Source of the DNA: Bradyrhizobium sp. LLZ17
GTDB lineage: Bacteria > Pseudomonadota > Alphaproteobacteria > Rhizobiales > Xanthobacteraceae
NCBI RefSeq assembly: GCF_041200145.1
Contig: NZ_CP165734.1
Span: forward strand, 5,933,001-5,997,000
Reading direction: 5' to 3'
Length of the DNA: 64,000 nt
Position 1 is the stretch's first letter, and every line of letters begins with the position of its first letter. A program made the translations under genes and the position numbers. The notes beneath the pieces were generated by a model. That model ran no database searches. It saw nothing but the letters and a program-made list of their open reading frames with translations, and was not told where the DNA came from. Below, piece after piece: positions 836 through 29,441 of this stretch.

Positions 836-2299
836 TCAGACGCGGCGCGCGAGCGCCGCGTTGCCCGTGATGCGCGGTGGGGAAGACGCGGTAGAGCTCG
901 CGCCCGAGGGTGTGCCGGAGCCATTGGGTCCCTGAGTGTCCTGCGCCTGGGTCGGCGAGGTCCCGCCGGTAGCAGATGCCCCCTCCGGCCGCAATGGCCG
1001 GGGAGGCGCGAACAGAAAGCCCTGGCCGAACCGGACGTCAAAGTCGAGCAGATCGACCACGGCGCGCTCGCCCTCGATCCGTTCCGCGATCAGGTCGATG
1101 CCGAAGCGACCGAGCAGGTCGGACAGATCTGACGGGTGAATGTCGGAGGTCGATGCCTGCCTCGGATCGAGCAGGAGGGAGGCCGGCACCTTGATGAAGC
1201 GCACGCCGCGATCGGCGAGCTCGCGCGGCTCGATGCGCAGGTCCGTGACGTGGTCCATCGAGAAGCGGAAGCCGCGCTGCGCGAGCGCGGCAAGATTCTC
1301 GGTCTCGGCCGGGCCAAGATTGCGGAAGGTGGACTGCTTGAACTCCAGCACCAGCGACGGCGCCAACGCCCGGTTGGCTTCGAGGAAGTCCAGGCATTGC
1401 GCGAACGTGGTTGAGTTGCCGAGCGTGGAGGCCGCGACGTTGCAGAACACGCCGACATCCTTGTTGCGCACCATCAGGCGGCGCAGCACCTGCACACAGC
1501 GCAGCATCACCATGTTGTCGACGCGCCCGATCAGGCCGGAGGCTTCGGCGACGCTGATGAACTCCTCGGCGGCGATCAGCTGGTCGCGCTCGTCGCGCAC
1601 CCGCGTCACCGCCTCGTAGAACCGCACCTTGCGCTGCGGCAGCGTCACCATCGGCTGGAGGAAGATGTCGATGCGGTTTTCGTCAATGGCATTGCGCAGC
1701 GTGGCCAGCATCTGGGTCGGGTTGCGTGCGCCGGCGGCCTGGATCATCGGTGTGGGCGCGGGCCGCGGCGCCGCCGGGAGCGGGGGCGGTGCAACCGGGC
1801 GTTCCTCGGGCATTGCGATCAGATCAACCGGCCCCTTCGGTTCCTGCTTTGCGGCCGCAGCCGGGGCAGGAGAAGTGGCAGGAGAGGGTGTCCCATCCGC
1901 CAGCAGATCCTCATGGACCGACACGGTGGCGGCGAGCTGCCGGACCAACCCGCTGAGCTCGTTGATCTCACCGACCACCGACTGGATGCGGTCGGAGTTG
2001 GTCGAATTGGACGAAGCGACGCGGCCTTCGACCGCCGCGAGCCGGCGGCCGAACTCGGCCACCTGGCGGGCGAGGTCGGCGGTGCCGCGCGACAGATCGG
2101 CGATCTGGCCGCCCACGTCGCTGCGGTCGCGCAGCCGCATCGATACCGCGTTGTAGAGGATCAGGAAAGTCAGCGCGGTCAGCGCCACGATCGCGGATTC
2201 GGTTCCGCTGATCCCGGCGACCGAGTAGAGCACGAGCCCGAGCGAGGCCGCGACCAGGACCATGCAGATGGCGATGAAGATCGTCGAGATGCAGATCAT
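836..2299 (-). CDS. Membrane-anchored coiled-coil protein with degenerate EAL domain (TipF-like)
   Basis: A 487-residue protein with two N-terminal membrane segments (about 5-27 and 35-52), a predicted coiled coil (about 60-130), a Pro/Ala-rich linker (140-190) and a C-terminal EAL fold (about 200-450). The EAL signature reads YEAV (228-231), so the leucine is lost; the usual metal-ligand motifs are altered too (NVAAS, EFKQS, and MDHVTD in place of DDFGTG). K370 in IKVP remains. Catalysis of c-di-GMP hydrolysis is therefore unlikely. The two-TM, coiled-coil, inactive-EAL layout matches Caulobacter TipF, a c-di-GMP effector for polar flagellum assembly; orthology is inferred from architecture only. 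The ATG has a weak GAGG 13 nt upstream. Confidence 0.8.
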   Translation of the reverse strand: MICISTIFIAICMVLVAASLGLVLYSVAGISGTESAIVALTALTFLILYNAVSMRLRDRSDVGGQIADLSRGTADLARQVAEFGRRLAAVEGRVASSNSTNSDRIQSVVGEINELSGLVRQLAATVSVHEDLLADGTPSPATSPAPAAAAKQEPKGPVDLIAMPEERPVAPPPLPAAPRPAPTPMIQAAGARNPTQMLATLRNAIDENRIDIFLQPMVTLPQRKVRFYEAVTRVRDERDQLIAAEEFISVAEASGLIGRVDNMVMLRCVQVLRRLMVRNKDVGVFCNVAASTLGNSTTFAQCLDFLEANRALAPSLVLEFKQSTFRNLGPAETENLAALAQRGFRFSMDHVTDLRIEPRELADRGVRFIKVPASLLLDPRQASTSDIHPSDLSDLLGRFGIDLIAERIEGERAVVDLLDFDVRFGQGFLFAPPRPLRPEGASATGGTSPTQAQDTQGPNGSGTPSGASSTASSPPRITGNAALARRV

Positions 2300-2439
2300 G
2301 CCGCGCGTTACGCCTCAAGAGCTGGCTGCCTCACCGGGAAAACACGGGTCGTTGTCCGAACTCGTCGCGCCCATGCTCGCCCAAGCCGCATCACCGTAAC
2401 ATCATTGTTGATTCGAGGGGATAGGGGCTGGTTCGGATC

Positions 2440-3984
2440 TCAACTCAGGCCAGCGCGGCGAAAGCCCTCGAGGTAATGCTCGCGATCGGCAGCGAGCCTG
2501 ATCGGCATGAACTCGGCGATCCAGGCCAGCGAGACGTTCGGCTGGGCGCGGCGCAGTTCCTTCAAGGCGACGCTGGCGACCTCGCCGTGACCCGCCATGG
2601 CGGCCGCCGCGGTCAGCACCCGGTGCGCTCCGACGAAGTCACTGCGCTGGCGCAAGGCCTCCTGCGCGAGCCGGATCGCCTCCTCGTAATCGCTGCCGAG
2701 GAAGCGGGCATAGGCGGCGATGCCGAAATAGACGGGGGCATAGGGGTCGCGTGGGCTGAGCCGGATCGCCCGGCGCGCGGCCTCGTCGGCGTCCCGCCAG
2801 CGGCCGCAATAGCCCAGCGCCAGTCCATGATAGCCCTGCGCCAGAGCAAAGTTCGGATTGAGCCGGAGCGCGGTCTCGAACTCGGCGAGCGAGTCGTCGA
2901 AACGGCGCGCGAACAGATTGACGTGGCCGAGCGCGTTGTGCGCCCAGGCATCCTCGTCGTCGGCGCGGATCGCGGCGCGCGCCGCCCGTTCGGCGACGGA
3001 TATGGCGCTGGCCATCTCCATCCAGCCCATATGCGCCGCGAACATGTAGCTGGTGCCGAGCAGCCCGAGCGCCTTGCCGTAGTTCGGATCGAGCGCGATG
3101 GCCTTTTCGAGCAGGGCTTGCGCCACGACATGGTCCTGCCGCGTCACGCGCCAGTAATGCGAGAGCGCGCGCATCAAGAGATCCCAGGCGTCCATGCTGT
3201 CGGGCGGCTTGCGCTGGGCGCGAAAATTCTCGGCCGCATAGAGCTGCGGCTCGATCGCGGCGACGATCGCCTCCGTGATCTCGTCCTGCACCGCGAAGAC
3301 GTCGGCGAGCTTGCGGTCGTAACGTTCGGCCCAGAGATGGCTGCCGGTAGCGACGTCATTGAGCTGCGCGGTGATGCGGACGCGGTCGCCGTCCTTGCGG
3401 ACGCTGCCCTCGACGACATAGCGCACGCCGAGCTGTTCCGCGACCTCACGCAAATGAACCGTGCGACCCTTGTAGATGAAGGACGAGTTGCGCGCGATGA
3501 CGAAGAACCAGCGCAGTTTCGACAGCGCCGTGATGATGTCCTCGCTGATCCCGTCGGAGAAATAGTCCTGTTCGGCCTCGCCGCTCATATTGGTGAAGGG
3601 CAGCACGGCGATCGCGGGGCGATCGGGCAGCGGCAATCCCGCCGTCGCCGCCGCAGTCGGCCCCGCGGCGCCGGACAGCTCCGTGATCGCGCCGACGAAG
3701 CGCACGCCCTTCCGCGCGACGGTGCGGATCAGCCGCTGCTCCTCGCCGGAGTCGCCGACGGCGCGCCGCGCCGCGTTGATCCGGCTGGTCAGCGTCGATT
3801 CCGAGACGACGCGGCCGTTCCAGATCGCATCCAGCATATTGTCCCGCGTCACCACGCGCTCGCGGTTGCGGACCAGATACAGCAGGAGATCGAACACCTG
3901 GGGCTCGAGCGCGACGAGCGTGTCCGCCCGCCGCAATTCGCGGCGCTCGGGATCGAGCACGAAATCCTCGAATTGAAACGGCAC
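2440..3984 (-). CDS. Winged-helix / TolB-like / TPR regulator
   Basis: Predicted 514-residue regulator. An OmpR/PhoB-type winged helix fills about residues 1-95 (EPQVFDLLLYLVRNRERVV, then a recognition helix near STLTSRINAARRAVGD). A TolB-like domain follows, containing FTNMSGEAEQDYFSDGISED and VRYVVEGSVRKDGDRVRI. The C-terminal half carries tetratricopeptide-like helices (DPNYGKALGLLG, NPNFALAQGYHGLALG). I placed the start at a GTG (VPFQFEDFVL) because it opens the family domain and has GAGG upstream; a TTG at 4047 would add 21 poorly conserved residues. Such proteins are common in Bradyrhizobium beside adenylate-cyclase genes; the target is unknown. It is divergent from the methyltransferase at 4106. 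Confidence 0.85.
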   Translation of the reverse strand: MPFQFEDFVLDPERRELRRADTLVALEPQVFDLLLYLVRNRERVVTRDNMLDAIWNGRVVSESTLTSRINAARRAVGDSGEEQRLIRTVARKGVRFVGAITELSGAAGPTAAATAGLPLPDRPAIAVLPFTNMSGEAEQDYFSDGISEDIITALSKLRWFFVIARNSSFIYKGRTVHLREVAEQLGVRYVVEGSVRKDGDRVRITAQLNDVATGSHLWAERYDRKLADVFAVQDEITEAIVAAIEPQLYAAENFRAQRKPPDSMDAWDLLMRALSHYWRVTRQDHVVAQALLEKAIALDPNYGKALGLLGTSYMFAAHMGWMEMASAISVAERAARAAIRADDEDAWAHNALGHVNLFARRFDDSLAEFETALRLNPNFALAQGYHGLALGYCGRWRDADEAARRAIRLSPRDPYAPVYFGIAAYARFLGSDYEEAIRLAQEALRQRSDFVGAHRVLTAAAAMAGHGEVASVALKELRRAQPNVSLAWIAEFMPIRLAADREHYLEGFRRAGLS

Positions 3985-4105
3985 GCTGCGCCTCGGCTTA
4001 CGCCCGAAAATCAAGGTGATCTGAACGTAAAATAGCGCCGCTCTCAAGGCCAGCGAGCCGCATGCGCCTTATCGTCCCGGCGTTCTTCAACCACAGGAGA
4101 TTGCC

Positions 4106-4948
4106 ATGTCGACATCCGCAGCGCTCAGCACGCCAGCCGCCGCCCACCCCGATCTTGCCGCCGTCAAGCACCGTCAGCAGGGCGCTTGGTCGTCCGGCGA
4201 CTATGCGGTGGTCGGCACCACCTTGCAGATCGTCGGCGAGCAGCTCTGCGAGGCGCTCGATCTGCGCGCCGGCAGCAAGGTGCTGGATGTTGCGGCCGGC
4301 AACGGCAATGCGACGCTGGCTGCGGCCCGGCGCTGGTGCGATGTCACCTCCACGGACTACGTGCCGGCGCTGCTCAAACGCGGGCGCGAGCGGGCCGCCG
4401 CGGAGCATTTGACGGTCGAATTCCGCGAAGCGGATGCCGAGGCACTGCCGTTCGCGGATGCAAGCTACGACGTCGTGCTCTCGACCTTCGGCGTGATGTT
4501 CACGCCGGACCAGGACAAGGCCGCGTCCGAGCTTGCGCGGGTCTGCAGGTCCGGCGGCAAGATCGGCCTCGCCAACTGGACGCCGCAGGGTTTCATCGGC
4601 CAGCTGTTCAAGACCATCGGCAAGCACCTGCCGCCGCCCGCGGGTGTGAAGTCGCCGGCGCTGTGGGGCACCCCGGCCCGGCTTCAGGAGATGTTCGGCG
4701 CTCAGGCGTCGGAGATCGCCGCCGAGCCGCGCATGTTCGTGTTCCGCTATCGCTCGCCGGAACACTGGCTGGAGGTCTTCAAGTCATACTACGGACCGAT
4801 GCTGAAAGCCTTCGCCGCACTGGACGAGACGGCGCAGGCCGCACTGCGCCGCGATCTCATGGCGTTGCTCGGCGAGTTCAACCATGCTGACGACGGCACG
4901 GTGGTCGTGCATGGCGAATATCTGGAAGTGGTGATCAGCAAGCGCTGA
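4106..4948 (+). CDS. Class I SAM-dependent methyltransferase (UbiE/COQ5-like)
   Basis: A 280-residue Rossmann-fold methyltransferase. The SAM-binding motif I is VLDVAAGNGNATLAAA, and the acidic residue after strand 2 is in TSTDYVPALL. Motif II region reads EALPFADASYDVVLSTFGVM and motif III region RSGGKIGLANWTP. The N-terminal segment VKHRQQGAWSSGDYAVVG is typical of a proteobacterial family acting on small molecules; the substrate cannot be told from sequence. The ATG is preceded by AGGAGATTGCC. The gene stands alone, with the BrkB gene converging on its 3' end. Confidence 0.85.
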   Translation: MSTSAALSTPAAAHPDLAAVKHRQQGAWSSGDYAVVGTTLQIVGEQLCEALDLRAGSKVLDVAAGNGNATLAAARRWCDVTSTDYVPALLKRGRERAAAEHLTVEFREADAEALPFADASYDVVLSTFGVMFTPDQDKAASELARVCRSGGKIGLANWTPQGFIGQLFKTIGKHLPPPAGVKSPALWGTPARLQEMFGAQASEIAAEPRMFVFRYRSPEHWLEVFKSYYGPMLKAFAALDETAQAALRRDLMALLGEFNHADDGTVVVHGEYLEVVISKR

Positions 4949-4997: not shown

Positions 4998-6128
4998 TCA
5001 GAATGGCGCGTTGGCCCCCACCGTGTCGGCCGAGACGGCGTCGCGACTGCCGAGCGGTTTCGGCCGCCCGGTGGTGGTGTCCCGCAGGGTTTGCCGTTCG
5101 ATCTCCGAGTTCAGCTCGGCCCCGAACATGATCACGATCGCCGACACCCACATCCACATCATCAGGCCGATCGCCGCGCCGAGCGAGCCATAGGTCGCGC
5201 TGTAATTGGCGAACTTCGACAGATACAAGGACAGTAGCGCCGAGCCGGCGATCCAGAGGATGGCGGCCGTTACCGCGCCGAGGCTCAGCCATTGCCAGCG
5301 CGGCGCATCCCGGCTGGGCGCGAAGCGGTAGAGGATCGCAAGCGCCACAAGGAGAATGACGAACAGCACCGGCCATCGTGCGAGAGCGACGATCAGCTTG
5401 CTTTCGGGAGCCATGCCGAGATGATCGAGCGCGAGCGGGAAGGCGACCACGGTCCCGACCATCAGCAGCAGCGCCAGGATCCCGCCGACCGTGAAGGCCA
5501 GCGACACCAGGTTCAGGCGGATGAAGCTGCGCTTTTCACGCTCCTCGTAAGCCACGTTGAGCGCGTCGAAGATGGATTTGACGCCGGCATTGGCGCTCCA
5601 GATCGCAAACACAAGGCCGAACAGGAAGGTGGCTCCGAGTGCCGTATGGCCTTTGGACACCACGCGGGCGACCTGGTCCTGGATGATCTGGAACGTTCCC
5701 TGGGGCAGCATCATCGCTAGGGTCTGCAGGTTGCCGGCAATCGTCGAGGGATTGGCGAACAGGCCATAGAACGAGACGAGCGCGGTGATCGCCGGAAAGA
5801 TCGCCAGCAACCCGAAGAAGACGACGCCGCCCGCGGTTGCGAGCAGGCGATCTTCATCGACGCGCTGATAAGTGCGCCAGAAAATATCCTTCCAGCCGGC
5901 CCAGGGAATTGCGAACGGATTATTGGAACGACGGCCACGTCCGGGCTGCGCGGCCGCACGCCCCGCGCTGGTCTCCGGCGAATTCGCCTCATTGTTGCGG
6001 TGGTCTTGCGGAGGCGCCGACTGGATCGAGCCGGAGTCCTTGAGATACCGTTCCGCGCTCAGCACGAACACGGCAGTGGCCGCCATCAGCAGCCAGCTGT
6101 CGAGTTGCTCGGAGCGCCGCGCGGGCAT
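4998..6128 (-). CDS. YihY/BrkB family inner-membrane protein
   Basis: A 376-residue polytopic membrane protein of the YihY/BrkB family (old name ribonuclease BN; not an RNase). The family core starts with FWRTYQRVDEDRLLATAGGV and runs through about six hydrophobic segments to GLMMWMWVSAIVIMFGAELN. An extra N-terminal region of about 75 residues holds one further hydrophobic stretch (SWLLMAATAVFVL). The ATG at 6128 overlaps the stop codon of the upstream Holin-X gene as TGATG, so the two are probably translated together; a GTG lies one codon earlier. The function of the family is unproven. Confidence 0.9.
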   Translation of the reverse strand: MPARRSEQLDSWLLMAATAVFVLSAERYLKDSGSIQSAPPQDHRNNEANSPETSAGRAAAQPGRGRRSNNPFAIPWAGWKDIFWRTYQRVDEDRLLATAGGVVFFGLLAIFPAITALVSFYGLFANPSTIAGNLQTLAMMLPQGTFQIIQDQVARVVSKGHTALGATFLFGLVFAIWSANAGVKSIFDALNVAYEEREKRSFIRLNLVSLAFTVGGILALLLMVGTVVAFPLALDHLGMAPESKLIVALARWPVLFVILLVALAILYRFAPSRDAPRWQWLSLGAVTAAILWIAGSALLSLYLSKFANYSATYGSLGAAIGLMMWMWVSAIVIMFGAELNSEIERQTLRDTTTGRPKPLGSRDAVSADTVGANAPF

Positions 6129-24904: not shown

Positions 24905-25291
24905 ATGGCCGTCACCGCCGCCACCAGAAAGCCCCGCCTGCACAACGCGCTCGAAGGCTCTGCGCTGACCGCCATCCTCCAGAGCTTCCCGACCTTCGCC
25001 ACTGCGGCGCTGCTGCTCAAGCTGTTCGGCAATCACGACCTCGTCGGCGACCCTGGCGTCGCCGTCTTCGTCGCCGTCGCGTCGCTCGTTCACGCGGTGA
25101 TTGCGGTGACGCTCGGGCCGGAGATCCCCGCGTTGTCCAGGGTGCTCTACGAGCCGAGCTTCTTCGATTCCACCCTGTCACTCGCCGACAAGATCACCGA
25201 ATGGCGCACCCACCCGGCCGCCTCGATGCAGCTCGTCGCGATCGTGCTGATGCTGTCGGTGATGGCGGTGGTGACGGCGAGCGTGGGGTGA
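24905..25291 (+). CDS. Membrane protein of unknown function, 128 aa
   Basis: A 128-residue protein with hydrophobic helices at about 21-40 (ILQSFPTFATAALLLK), 50-72 (AVFVAVASLVHAVIAVTLGP) and 106-125 (SMQLVAIVLMLSVMAVVTAS). A polar loop contains EPSFFDSTLSLADKITEWRT. GGGAGATGTGCC is the ribosome site. No family recognised; standalone. Confidence 0.65.
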   Translation: MAVTAATRKPRLHNALEGSALTAILQSFPTFATAALLLKLFGNHDLVGDPGVAVFVAVASLVHAVIAVTLGPEIPALSRVLYEPSFFDSTLSLADKITEWRTHPAASMQLVAIVLMLSVMAVVTASVG

Positions 25292-25408
25292 GACGTTAGG
25301 AGTACGGCAGGACTAGCTCAATTGCCCACGAGAGAGGTGGGGACGATTCCCTATCAAGTTCGCCCGTAATTCAACTGATGTGAAAACGCTTGGAGCCACT
25401 CGGAATCT

Positions 25409-26452
25409 CTAGCCCGCCTCGGTTACGGCCAATTCAAACTCTCCATCAGGTTCCTCGCGATCAATTCTCCGGTGATTGACGAGTAACGTGCGTATCGTCA
25501 TAGGCGATACATCAAAATGCTCAGCCACTTCTTGTTGGTTCTCGATGGAGTAGTCACTTTTTAGCATCTCATCCACGGCATCAAATGGACTCAAAAACTC
25601 GGCTGCAAAGGAACGTTGCATTTTCTGTCGATAAGTGTGCGCCCGAGTAGCCGGGAATAGCTTGCTGCTCGTTGCATTCACGACGCGATCTCCCAAAAGA
25701 CGGGCAAGTTCAAATCTTCGACCGGTCTTCCATTTCGATCTCAACACGATGCGTCCGTGACTCGGATTTTCGTCAAGCGCGAACGAGATATTGGCGCCGC
25801 CTTTATGGCCGTCCAAGACTGATGCTTGAGTCCCGATCATATTTGTCAGTTGCTCGTCGCTTATTTGCTTTGCACCCAGTCCCTCTTGCTCCCGCAAGGC
25901 TTGTGCTGCTGCAGCTCCATAGCGCCACGCAGGAACCTGACCGTGGCGAGGTAAGCCGGCACCTGAGCGTATTCGTGCTGCTTCTCTTGGCGCGGCGTCA
26001 TGCCCGTTTGTTCTAGCAATCTCACGAAGTTCATGCGCCGTTATTACGCGGCCCCCGATCCCGTGGTCCGCTGCGATCTCTTCAATCGTTGCATCACTCA
26101 ATTCCTTTGCGTCTGCGATGAGTTGCGTCAGTATTTCTGGATCAACCTCATCAGGCTCTCGTCCCAACAGCGCCTCAAGCTTTCGGGTTCGCCCCAGCGC
26201 AGGCGTCCCCCGTTCCTCGATCACGCCTGTCCAGATCTTATCGAGATTGGTATTCGGAATCTTCTCTACATCCAGTCGCGCCAGAACTTGGTCAATGAAT
26301 GTGGTCACCCCAGTTTCAAACTCAGATGCTTGAATCACAGCGGCGATGTCTGCAATATATCGATAGGGGCTCTTAGCGCGCTCTTCGGTAGGTTTAGCAA
26401 GCCGACCTATCGCTGCAATTCGTCGCTTTGGATTATTTCCTGGACGTGCCAC
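25409..26452 (-). CDS. ImmA/IrrE-like protein lacking the HExxH zinc ligands; transferred gene
   Basis: A 347-residue protein whose C-terminal half follows the ImmA/IrrE plan: RIVLRSKWKTGRRFELARLL (234-253), QRSFAAEFLSP (279-289) and a helix-turn-helix-like end EVAEHFDVSPMTIRTLLVNH (308-327). In active members the first block ends A-H-E-L-G-H; here it is A250-R-L-L-G-D255, so all three HExxH residues are replaced. The N-terminal half (1-175) is helical and charged, with no family seen. The start is GTG 26452 with GGGAGAG. Base composition is visibly more AT-rich than both neighbours and rare codons are frequent, pointing to transfer. No toxin, integrase or partner gene is adjacent. Confidence 0.7.
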   Translation of the reverse strand: MARPGNNPKRRIAAIGRLAKPTEERAKSPYRYIADIAAVIQASEFETGVTTFIDQVLARLDVEKIPNTNLDKIWTGVIEERGTPALGRTRKLEALLGREPDEVDPEILTQLIADAKELSDATIEEIAADHGIGGRVITAHELREIARTNGHDAAPREAARIRSGAGLPRHGQVPAWRYGAAAAQALREQEGLGAKQISDEQLTNMIGTQASVLDGHKGGANISFALDENPSHGRIVLRSKWKTGRRFELARLLGDRVVNATSSKLFPATRAHTYRQKMQRSFAAEFLSPFDAVDEMLKSDYSIENQQEVAEHFDVSPMTIRTLLVNHRRIDREEPDGEFELAVTEAG

Positions 26453-26534
26453 GATACTCTCCCAAGTGCGGCGTTATCCCAGCAGACGCCGCCGCCGATC
26501 TACTAATACTATAAATTGAAGCATGGCGTCATTG

Positions 26535-29441
26535 CTACCTCTTCTTCCACCCACCCCTATGTCCCGGCATCCCACCCGTCGATTTCGGCGCCGGGCCGAA
26601 CTCCGGTCCTGATTGCCGCGAGTCCGTGGGCTGGATGATGCGGCTCTCGCCGCCGAACGGTTTTGACGGCAGCGCGCGGTCCCCGCGATAGGGGAGCGAT
26701 TCCGGGCCGTGCATTTCGTCCAGATGCGGCTTGTGCACCTTTGAGCCGCCACTGCCGCCGCTCGCTTTCAACGCGGAGCTCACGGTCTTTTTCTTCATCG
26801 CGCTCACCGGGAGATTCGCGGCGTCGCCGTACTTCTTCGCACCCGCATAGGCGCCGGCCTTGCCCTGCACGGTGCGCTGCTTGACGGTGGGGTCGTCGAC
26901 GACGGCGAGCTCGGTGGCGCGCAGGCGCTTGACTTCGTCGCGGAGGCGGGCAGCTTCCTCGAAATTCAGATCGGCGGCGGCCTCGCGCATCCGCGTTTCC
27001 AGATCGCCGAGCACGGCTTCGAAATTGTGGCCGATCGAGATGACGTCGTCGGTCATGTCGTGACCGCCGATCTCGACCAGCACATGGTCGCGCTCGTAGA
27101 CGCTGTTCATGATGTCGCCGATCGACTTCTTGATGCTCTCCGGCGTGATGCCATGCGCTGTGTTGTACTCGACCTGCTTCTCGCGGCGGCGGTCGGTCTC
27201 GGCGATGGCGCGCTGCATCGATCCGGTCATCTGGTCGGCATAGAGGATCACCTTGCCGTCGACGTTGCGCGCGGCGCGGCCGATGGTCTGGATCAGCGAG
27301 GTCTCGCTGCGCAGAAAGCCTTCCTTGTCGGCATCCAGGATCGCGACCAGCGCGCATTCGGGAATGTCGAGGCCTTCGCGCAGCAGATTGATGCCGACCA
27401 GCGCGTCGAACGCACCGAGGCGAAGATCGCGGATGATCTCGATGCGCTCGATGGTGTCGATATCGCTGTGCATGTAGCGGACGCGGATGCCCTGCTCATG
27501 CAGATATTCGGTGAGGTCCTCCGCCATCCGCTTGGTCAGCACCGTGATCAGCGAGCGGTAGCCGGCCTGCGCGGTGGCGCGGACCTCGCCGACGAGATCG
27601 TCGACCTGGGTGCGGGCCGGGCGAATGTTGACGGGCGGATCGATCAAACCCGTGGGGCGGATCACCTGCTCGACGAACACGCCGCCGCTCTCGTTCAACT
27701 CCCAGGCGCTGGGCGTGGCCGAGACCGCGACCGTCTGCGGCCGCATCATATCCCACTCCTCGAACCGCAGCGGGCGGTTGTCCATGCAGGAGGGCAGGCG
27801 GAAGCCGTATTCGGCCAGCGTCGCCTTGCGGCGGAAGTCGCCGCGGAACATGCCGCCGATCTGCGGCACGGTGACGTGGCTCTCGTCGGCGAACACCAGC
27901 GCGTTGTCGGGCACATATTCGAACAGCGTCGGCGGCGGCTCGCCGGGCAGGCGTCCGGTCAGATAGCGCGAATAGTTCTCGATGCCGGCGCAGCTTCCGG
28001 TCGCCTCCATCATCTCGAGGTCGAACGTGGTGCGCTGCTCCAGCCGCTGCGCTTCCAGCAGGCGGCCCTGGTCGTGGAGCTGGTCGAGCCGCATCTTCAA
28101 TTCGGATTTGATCGACTTGATCGCCTGCACCAGCGTCGGGCGCGGCGTCACATAGTGCGAGTTGGCGTAGATCTTGATGAATTCGAGCTCGTCCTGCTTG
28201 TGGCCGGTGAGCGGATCGAACTCCTCGATATTCTCGACGGTGTCGCCGAACAAATTCACGCGCCAGGCGCGGTCCTCATAGTGCGCCGGGAAGATGTCGA
28301 TGACGTCGCCGCGCACGCGAAACGTGCCGCGGGTGAAATCGGCCTGGGTGCGCTTGTATTGCAGCGCGACGAGGTCGGCGATGAGCTGGCGCTGGTCGAT
28401 GCGCTCGCCCTTCTTCAGGGCGAAGGTCATCGCGGTGTAGGTCTCGACCGAGCCGATACCGTAGATGCAGGACACCGACGCGACGATGATGACGTCGTCG
28501 CGTTCGAGCAGCGCGCGCGTCGCCGAATGGCGCATGCGGTCGATCTGCTCGTTGATCGACGAGTCCTTTTCGATATAGGTGTCGGTGCGCGGGACGTAGG
28601 CTTCCGGCTGGTAGTAATCGTAATACGAGACGAAATACTCGACCGCGTTGTCCGGGAAGAAATTCTTGAACTCGCCATAGAGCTGGGCGGCCAGCGTCTT
28701 GTTCGGCGCCAGGATGATGGCGGGGCGCTGCGTCGCCTCGATCACCTTGGCCATGGTGTAGGTCTTGCCCGAGCCGGTGACGCCGAGCAGCACCTGCGAG
28801 CGCTCGTTGCGCTGGATGCCCTCGACCAGCTCGGCGATCGCGGTCGGCTGGTCGCCGCGCGGCTCGTAGTCCGACTTGATCTCGAAGCGCACGCCGCCTT
28901 CGGACTTTTCCGGGCGCGGCGGCCGGTGCGGCGTCCAGACCCGCAAGCTGCCGTCGTCCTTGCGGAACTCGGGGCGCCCCTCGCGGATCAGCGATTCCAG
29001 CGCGTCCGCGGTGGCCTTGACGCCGAGCGCCTCCATCTTGCTGCGCGGCGGCCGCGCAAGCGCCTCGGCATCGTCCTCCTCGGTGGGCAGCCCGAGCTGT
29101 CGCGCCAGTTCCGGATCGAGCGTCGGGATCGTGGCCGCCGTGCCGTAATTGGCCTGCGGTGCTTCTTCCAATCCTGCGGGCCGATCAGCCGGAAAGTCCT
29201 TGGGCGTCGAGGCGCGCGCGCGATGCGCGGCGGCTTCGCCCCCGGAGCGGCGGTCGCGCGAATTGTCCGGCGGCGGCTGGAGACCGGTGCCCGAGCCCAT
29301 GCCGGCATCGCCGCGATTGATCGCGGGATTGAGCAACTCGGCCAGCGCCGGCCCGATCGGCTGCACGTCGGGCCGATGGGCTTTGGAGTTCGGCGCCTTG
29401 GATTTGGGGGATCTTGTGGGGGGAGCAGGTTTCTTCGCCAT
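26535..29441 (-). CDS. uvrB: Excinuclease ABC subunit B with long N- and C-terminal extensions
   Basis: A 968-residue damage-verifying helicase of nucleotide excision repair; E. coli UvrB has 673 residues. The conserved core starts near residue 185 ([17 protein letters not shown]), with Walker A GVTGSGKT (220-227), the beta-hairpin [20 protein letters not shown] and helicase motifs through IGRAARN. The UVR motif [20 protein letters not shown] is near the end of the core. About 180 disordered residues precede the core and about 110 follow it (Lys/Gly/Pro-rich, ending RGGWKKR). Long extensions are usual in Bradyrhizobium UvrB; their role is unknown. Confidence 0.97.

Follow-up and report, generated by a model that had tools for sequence, protein, structure and literature searches.

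An open reading frame beside uvrB in Bradyrhizobium sp. LLZ17 is probably the deletion scar of a two-gene, toxin-antitoxin-like module

The window analysed here is a stretch of 64,000 nucleotides from Bradyrhizobium sp. LLZ17 (contig NZ_CP165734.1, positions 5,933,001 to 5,997,000), and our subject is a 347-residue open reading frame (ORF) on its minus strand that starts with GTG and lies between a gene for a putative membrane protein and uvrB. An earlier note, made by a model from the sequence alone, had read this ORF as one complete, transferred gene whose ImmA/IrrE-like domain had lost its metalloprotease site. We found instead that it is a fusion, in which a stub of ~14 codons from a small gene (gene A) runs in frame into a larger gene (gene B) lacking ~113 codons. 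The ORF is probably the deletion scar of a horizontally acquired, toxin-antitoxin-like module of two genes, now most likely a relic or orphan fragment. The fold and the transfer that the earlier note had proposed stood up to analysis; the lost site and the single complete gene did not.

The two-gene organisation is evident from the relatives, in which gene A (~140 residues) precedes gene B on the same strand. A gene A profile placed gene A directly upstream of a full-length gene B at 22/22 independent loci (4 genome contigs, 7 loci from the genus, 5 from plasmids, 5 more from the class and 1 contig of a viral collection), and in 13 loci where it was measured, the overlap between their first-start annotations is 4-38 nt. 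This co-directional pair of adjacent or overlapping genes belongs to the intact relatives only. Among the 22, the gene A match is partial or weak at L018 (profile positions 70-126), L011 (22-127), L053 (29-127) and L072 (27-129, E 1.6e-8); L001 and L003 are 77% identical, and no other pair exceeds 60%. Duplicates were counted once (L006=L014, L007=L015, L008=L016, L009=L017, L010=L018, L012=L019, L013=L020, L071=L053 at 100% identity, and L005=L068=L075=window), and L076-L078 repeat genus loci. The window itself, L019, two Acidithiobacillus plasmid matches covering 35-39% of the query, and L074, because both its genes are truncated, were left out.

Both ends of the fusion could be placed on this organisation. 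The LLZ17 genome holds a single gene B match at E<=0.01, which covers residues 109-435 of the relative P0004 at 76% identity; since it begins at residue 109, ~108-113 N-terminal residues of gene B are missing from the window. At the start of the ORF, residues 2-17 of the gene A profile scored 40.8 bits, compared with 10.1 bits for the runner-up among 97,600 six-frame window positions, and gene B sequence runs from codon 20, which corresponds to Lys114 of P0004. The N-terminal 175 residues, which the earlier note could match to nothing, are thus ~14 residues of gene A followed by the middle part of gene B. The distance from the gene A start to the matching lysine codon of gene B is 752 nt in L014 and 755 nt in L015 but 57 nt in the window, so that ~0.7 kb is missing. 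One gene B relative, P0001, compared as a protein only, has 312 residues and is 83% identical. We also observed a second remnant of the module, in genome G566 (L074), where positions 1-94 of the gene A profile are followed by 380-435 of gene B.

Gene B has 985 relatives at E<=0.001, and the 120 listed are mostly 432-445 residues long and carry no precomputed Pfam domain. The predicted model of P0004 contains the ImmA/IrrE fold in the C-terminal part, as the earlier note had supposed. The hexapeptide A250-R-L-L-G-D255 does stand in the place of HExxH; the homologue search for conserved loss of this motif, which the note had suggested, revealed HExxH in 0/240 distinct gene B proteins (the 120 listed of the 985, and 120 listed of 294 from another search), with the site covered in 240/240. 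An alignment of 91 rows, distant relatives among them, has the first His replaced by R in 90 rows and by C in one, the Glu by L, I, A, V, M or F with one gap, and the second His by D, E or S; the presumed third zinc-ligand position, placed by its spacing to FAAE, is never Glu. The loss is a trait of this unnamed family and not damage in the window gene, and it looks ancestral to the members seen. A few relatives still carry the database name ImmA/IrrE family metallo-endopeptidase. The full gene B product (~437 residues) comprises an N-terminal domain that may resemble immunity proteins of contact-dependent inhibition (CDI), a helical middle and the dead ImmA/IrrE domain with an end like a helix-turn-helix (HTH), the last suggested by a sub-threshold HTH_DeoR match (17.7 bits, cut-off 21) and by helices 397-407 and 411-420 of the P0004 model. 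Searched by sequence against solved structures, gene B gave no convincing match. The fusion ORF had no match above cut-off in Pfam (PF06114 reached 12.5 bits, gathering cut-off 22) or NCBIfam, and its best PHROGs match had E 0.019; its only PADLOC match, a weak one, was RmrA (16.9 bits, E 5.5e-4). A distant gene B relative of 533 residues with a longer N-terminus lies, without gene A, near a Gabija pair (L019 7793-9394).

Gene A carries the invariant residues H38, E106, Y117 and Y120 (63 rows), and these His, Glu and Tyr residues could be enzymatic. Its product is probably a ribonuclease-like toxin. The best structural leads were a CDI toxin for gene A and a CDI immunity protein for gene B, which fit each other. 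From lengths and titles we take 5t87_E to be the toxin chain, 4ntq_B the immunity chain and 3hi2_D MqsR; 6af4 is presumably a HigB-type toxin. We assume that the name BECR applies to the folds of the gene A family (PMC9086364). Sequence searches of gene A against solved structures gave nothing convincing, a viral fold library had no match below E 0.001, and none of eight gene A proteins matched a PADLOC family. We found no paper joining ImmA, CdiI, toxin-antitoxin and BECR, although five papers bring three of these together, in each case without ImmA; such papers may exist. In L051, a Massilia plasmid, a second stretch like gene A profile positions 4-62 was observed in the same open frame as gene A (5060-5974).

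As the earlier note had remarked, the ORF has a higher AT content than the genes around it, with a GC content of 0.531 (0.491 at third codon positions) against 0.661 (0.879) for uvrB and 0.672 (0.907) for the membrane gene. Between these two genes lie 1.24 kb in which no other sizeable candidate gene occurs. In nine intact relatives the GC content of gene B is 0.53-0.58, below that of the fetched locus in 7/9 (not in L017 and L004); low GC is therefore common across the family, which fits transfer. The synteny check for an empty site, also suggested in the note, was made in 19 genomes chosen from a genus search, our own included (uvrB was found in 245/257 genomes). The space separating the membrane gene from uvrB is nearly empty in four relatives, at 20 bp (G007), 65 bp (G005), 88 bp (G002) and 100 bp (G013); it measures 424-468 bp in five genomes, four of them with a second membrane-gene copy, and 1.3-8.9 kb in nine. 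The insert contains no second sizeable gene of the integrase or transposase kind, short repeats nearby do not bracket it, and the window contains no tRNA gene. Promoter- and terminator-like sites and short repeats around the ORF gave nothing useful. The features are collected in Table 1.

Table 1. Features of the fusion ORF and its surroundings, in window positions.
Feature	Position	Strand	Basis
Fusion ORF, N-terminal gene A stub joined in frame to gene B from ~residue 114 on	25409..26452	-	
Codons 1-14, taken from the beginning of gene A, the small upstream gene	26411..26452	-	Gene A profile match
Deletion junction zone, codons 14-20	26395..26411	-	Spacing compared with intact modules L014 and L015
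Gene B part: middle region, pseudo-ImmA domain, C-terminal HTH-like stretch	25409..26395	-	76% identity to P0004
Predicted ImmA/IrrE-fold domain without metalloprotease residues, residues 167-345	25418..25954	-	Mapped from P0004 model
A250-R-L-L-G-D255, replacing A-HExxH	25688..25705	-	Sequence and family alignment
C-terminal HTH-like stretch, residues 303-326	25475..25546	-	Sub-threshold HTH matches and model helices
Shine-Dalgarno-like GGGAGAG 5' of the GTG start	26457..26463	-	Resemblance in sequence only
Insert between two conserved genes	25292..26534	.	GC 0.529; same interval 20-100 bp in four relatives
Left anchor: small gene, putative membrane protein	24905..25291	+	Label in earlier note and hydrophobic look; kept in relatives
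Right anchor: uvrB	26535..29441	-	Gene name from earlier note

In an intact pair, the gene B protein would bind the gene A product through its N-terminal domain and keep it silent, while the pseudo-ImmA/HTH part might regulate the operon or sense a signal, for instance single-stranded DNA when phages attack; a change in the gene B protein would then free the gene A product and growth would stop. In the window, a deletion of ~0.7 kb would have taken all but ~14 codons of gene A together with ~113 codons of gene B and left one open fusion frame. Counted on the P0004 model, the fusion lacks 7/9 strands of the immunity-like domain. With the candidate toxin and most of this domain gone, what remains is most likely either a relic that does no harm or a regulatory fragment left without its partner.

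Some observations weigh against this conclusion and would suit a working fusion protein, either a domesticated, toxin-free regulator or an orphan antitoxin fragment acting against the same toxin on other elements. All 347 codons are open behind a Shine-Dalgarno-like start, and at 80 near-invariant gene B columns the window shows 0 deviations, the median member having 1. The open frame and the intact columns imply that the deletion is recent or that the remainder is still under selection, and either may apply. The RmrA match also speaks for a working protein. However, the loss of most immunity-like strands argues against it, the intact residues are equally well explained by a recent deletion, and the short form was seen in no other genus genome; three more genomes contain a relative at E<=1e-20, and there the open frames have 442-448 residues. 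We consider a working fusion improbable. It is far less plausible still, indeed barely credible, that the ORF is an ImmA/IrrE-like gene standing on its own, with a metalloprotease site lost only recently. The fold and the missing HExxH are both real, but the motif is absent from all 240 relatives and the first residues of the ORF belong to gene A; a complete gene of 347 residues is ruled out by the longer relatives (~437 residues) and the gene A upstream of them.

It is rather unlikely, though conceivable, that the products of genes A and B are the subunits of a single defence effector, or a pair of DNA-binding regulators, and not a toxin and its antitoxin. Their order and overlap are like those of toxin-first modules, the invariant gene A residues are possibly enzymatic, and the two CDI leads fit each other, all of which argues against such subunits. 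Two further points slightly lower our confidence in the scar of a toxin-antitoxin-like module and in the bolder proposal below, namely that the evidence from defence-gene neighbours comes without a control, and that helical domains call for caution. Taken together, we still regard the deletion scar as the probable explanation. We propose more tentatively, as a possibility short of an even chance, that the A-B pair represents a novel and widespread class of toxin-antitoxin systems directed against phages, in which a CDI-toxin-like RNase would be paired with a CdiI-like antitoxin whose anciently inactivated ImmA/IrrE domain senses without cutting, and that the window copy was disarmed by one deletion at a defence hotspot beside uvrB.

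The genome tallies are lower bounds (4-10 candidates were scored per genome) and include our own genome. In the genus, at least 4/265 genomes have a relative at E<=1e-20 and, when the query was full-length, at least 8/195 have one at E<=1e-5; in the class, at least 7/385 have a relative. Relatives occur in 7/72,556 plasmid records, each at <60% identity. A phage origin of the module is not indicated, with 0/50,697 phage records matching P0004 at E<=1e-5 and one relative (L079) among viral contigs.

The interval beside uvrB (window 25292-26534; L057, L058, L060, L061, L065, L066) is a possible defence hotspot. Ten ORFs from six of the nine long-interval genomes were scanned, G017, G001 and G019 lying outside the scan. 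We found DpnI-like restriction proteins in G004 and G023, a D12 methyltransferase with two DndB-like proteins in G016, a NACHT protein in G029 and, under the Pfam cut-off, a DndB-like protein in G018; the scan in G021 gave no match. The membrane-gene match reaches only 45-51% identity in five of these nine genomes (G001, G004, G018, G019, G023), where it may therefore be a paralogue. An AT-rich ORF of 408 residues was observed at the same site in G021 (L066 1048-2274), with one stretch resembling PD-(D/E)XK on visual inspection and with no Pfam or PADLOC match at E<=0.01. We found no paper joining uvrB, defense island, hotspot and Bradyrhizobium; such papers may exist. Around the modules, PADLOC was run on ten chosen genes of five loci. 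In L014, from a genome of the same genus, the intact module (1842-4693) lies near GajA and GajB of Gabija (E 8e-226 and 6e-138); AbiTii was found in L016 (3e-44), the candidate family PDC-S09 in L003 (7e-29), and weak matches only (1e-6) in L015. By annotation, dptG and dptH adjoin the module on plasmid L051, and L052-L055 show little that is defence-like beyond the DNA methyltransferase annotated in L052.

The usual view of ImmA/IrrE proteins is that they work by cleaving a partner. A family in which every member examined lacks HExxH, but which keeps the fold beside a conserved small gene, would show that in toxin-antitoxin or defence systems the domain can serve purely for sensing or binding. 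If this is true, a pseudo-protease that senses, for example, single-stranded DNA without cutting would provide release without proteolysis, and the window would show a host disarming such a system by a single deletion. The site beside uvrB may also be a practical address for further defence genes in the genus, and the intact gene A-B pair is short and easily tested.

Among known systems, CDI pairs (CdiA-CT/CdiI, BECR fold) differ from the module, which is a stand-alone cassette of two genes with no CdiA or CdiB seen alongside and whose proteins do not convincingly resemble solved structures in sequence. A 2009 study described operons joining ImmA-type (COG2856) genes to RelE or PIN toxins and regarded the ImmA part as a protease (PMC2701414). 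The anti-phage system PD-lambda-2 (PMC9519451) places a toxin-like gene ahead of one encoding an ImmA/IrrE peptidase domain; it consists of a HigB-like toxin, an Xre-peptidase fusion and a third component. The module resembles it in gene order and through a weak PD-Lambda-2_B match of one distant gene B (E 0.029), but no third gene was recognised in the module, no N-terminal Xre domain was found and no peptidase motif is intact. CapP of the CapH/CapP immune-operon controllers and PprI/IrrE have HExxH, whereas the module has R/C and D/E/S at the His positions, and no gene for a cleavable partner repressor was recognised. CapP is activated by single-stranded DNA (PMC13373217), and sensing of such DNA by the dead domain is therefore a fair guess. 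RosmerTA (RmrT/RmrA) is presented in PMC10440598 as an anti-phage toxin-antitoxin system with a variable toxin and an antitoxin bearing an ImmA-type domain. The module is alike in this domain, and the RmrA profile matches the window ORF weakly. Gene A, adjacent to gene B in the 22 full-length relatives, would be the candidate toxin gene, and the window keeps only its stub. A small HTH is common at the N-terminus of RmrA-type proteins, whereas the ImmA domain of the module follows an N-terminal region of ~260 residues, and the window ORF has the fold but not the protease residues. The closest working model would be a toxin-antitoxin pair similar to RosmerTA, but with the ImmA domain dead, the module is not filed as RosmerTA.
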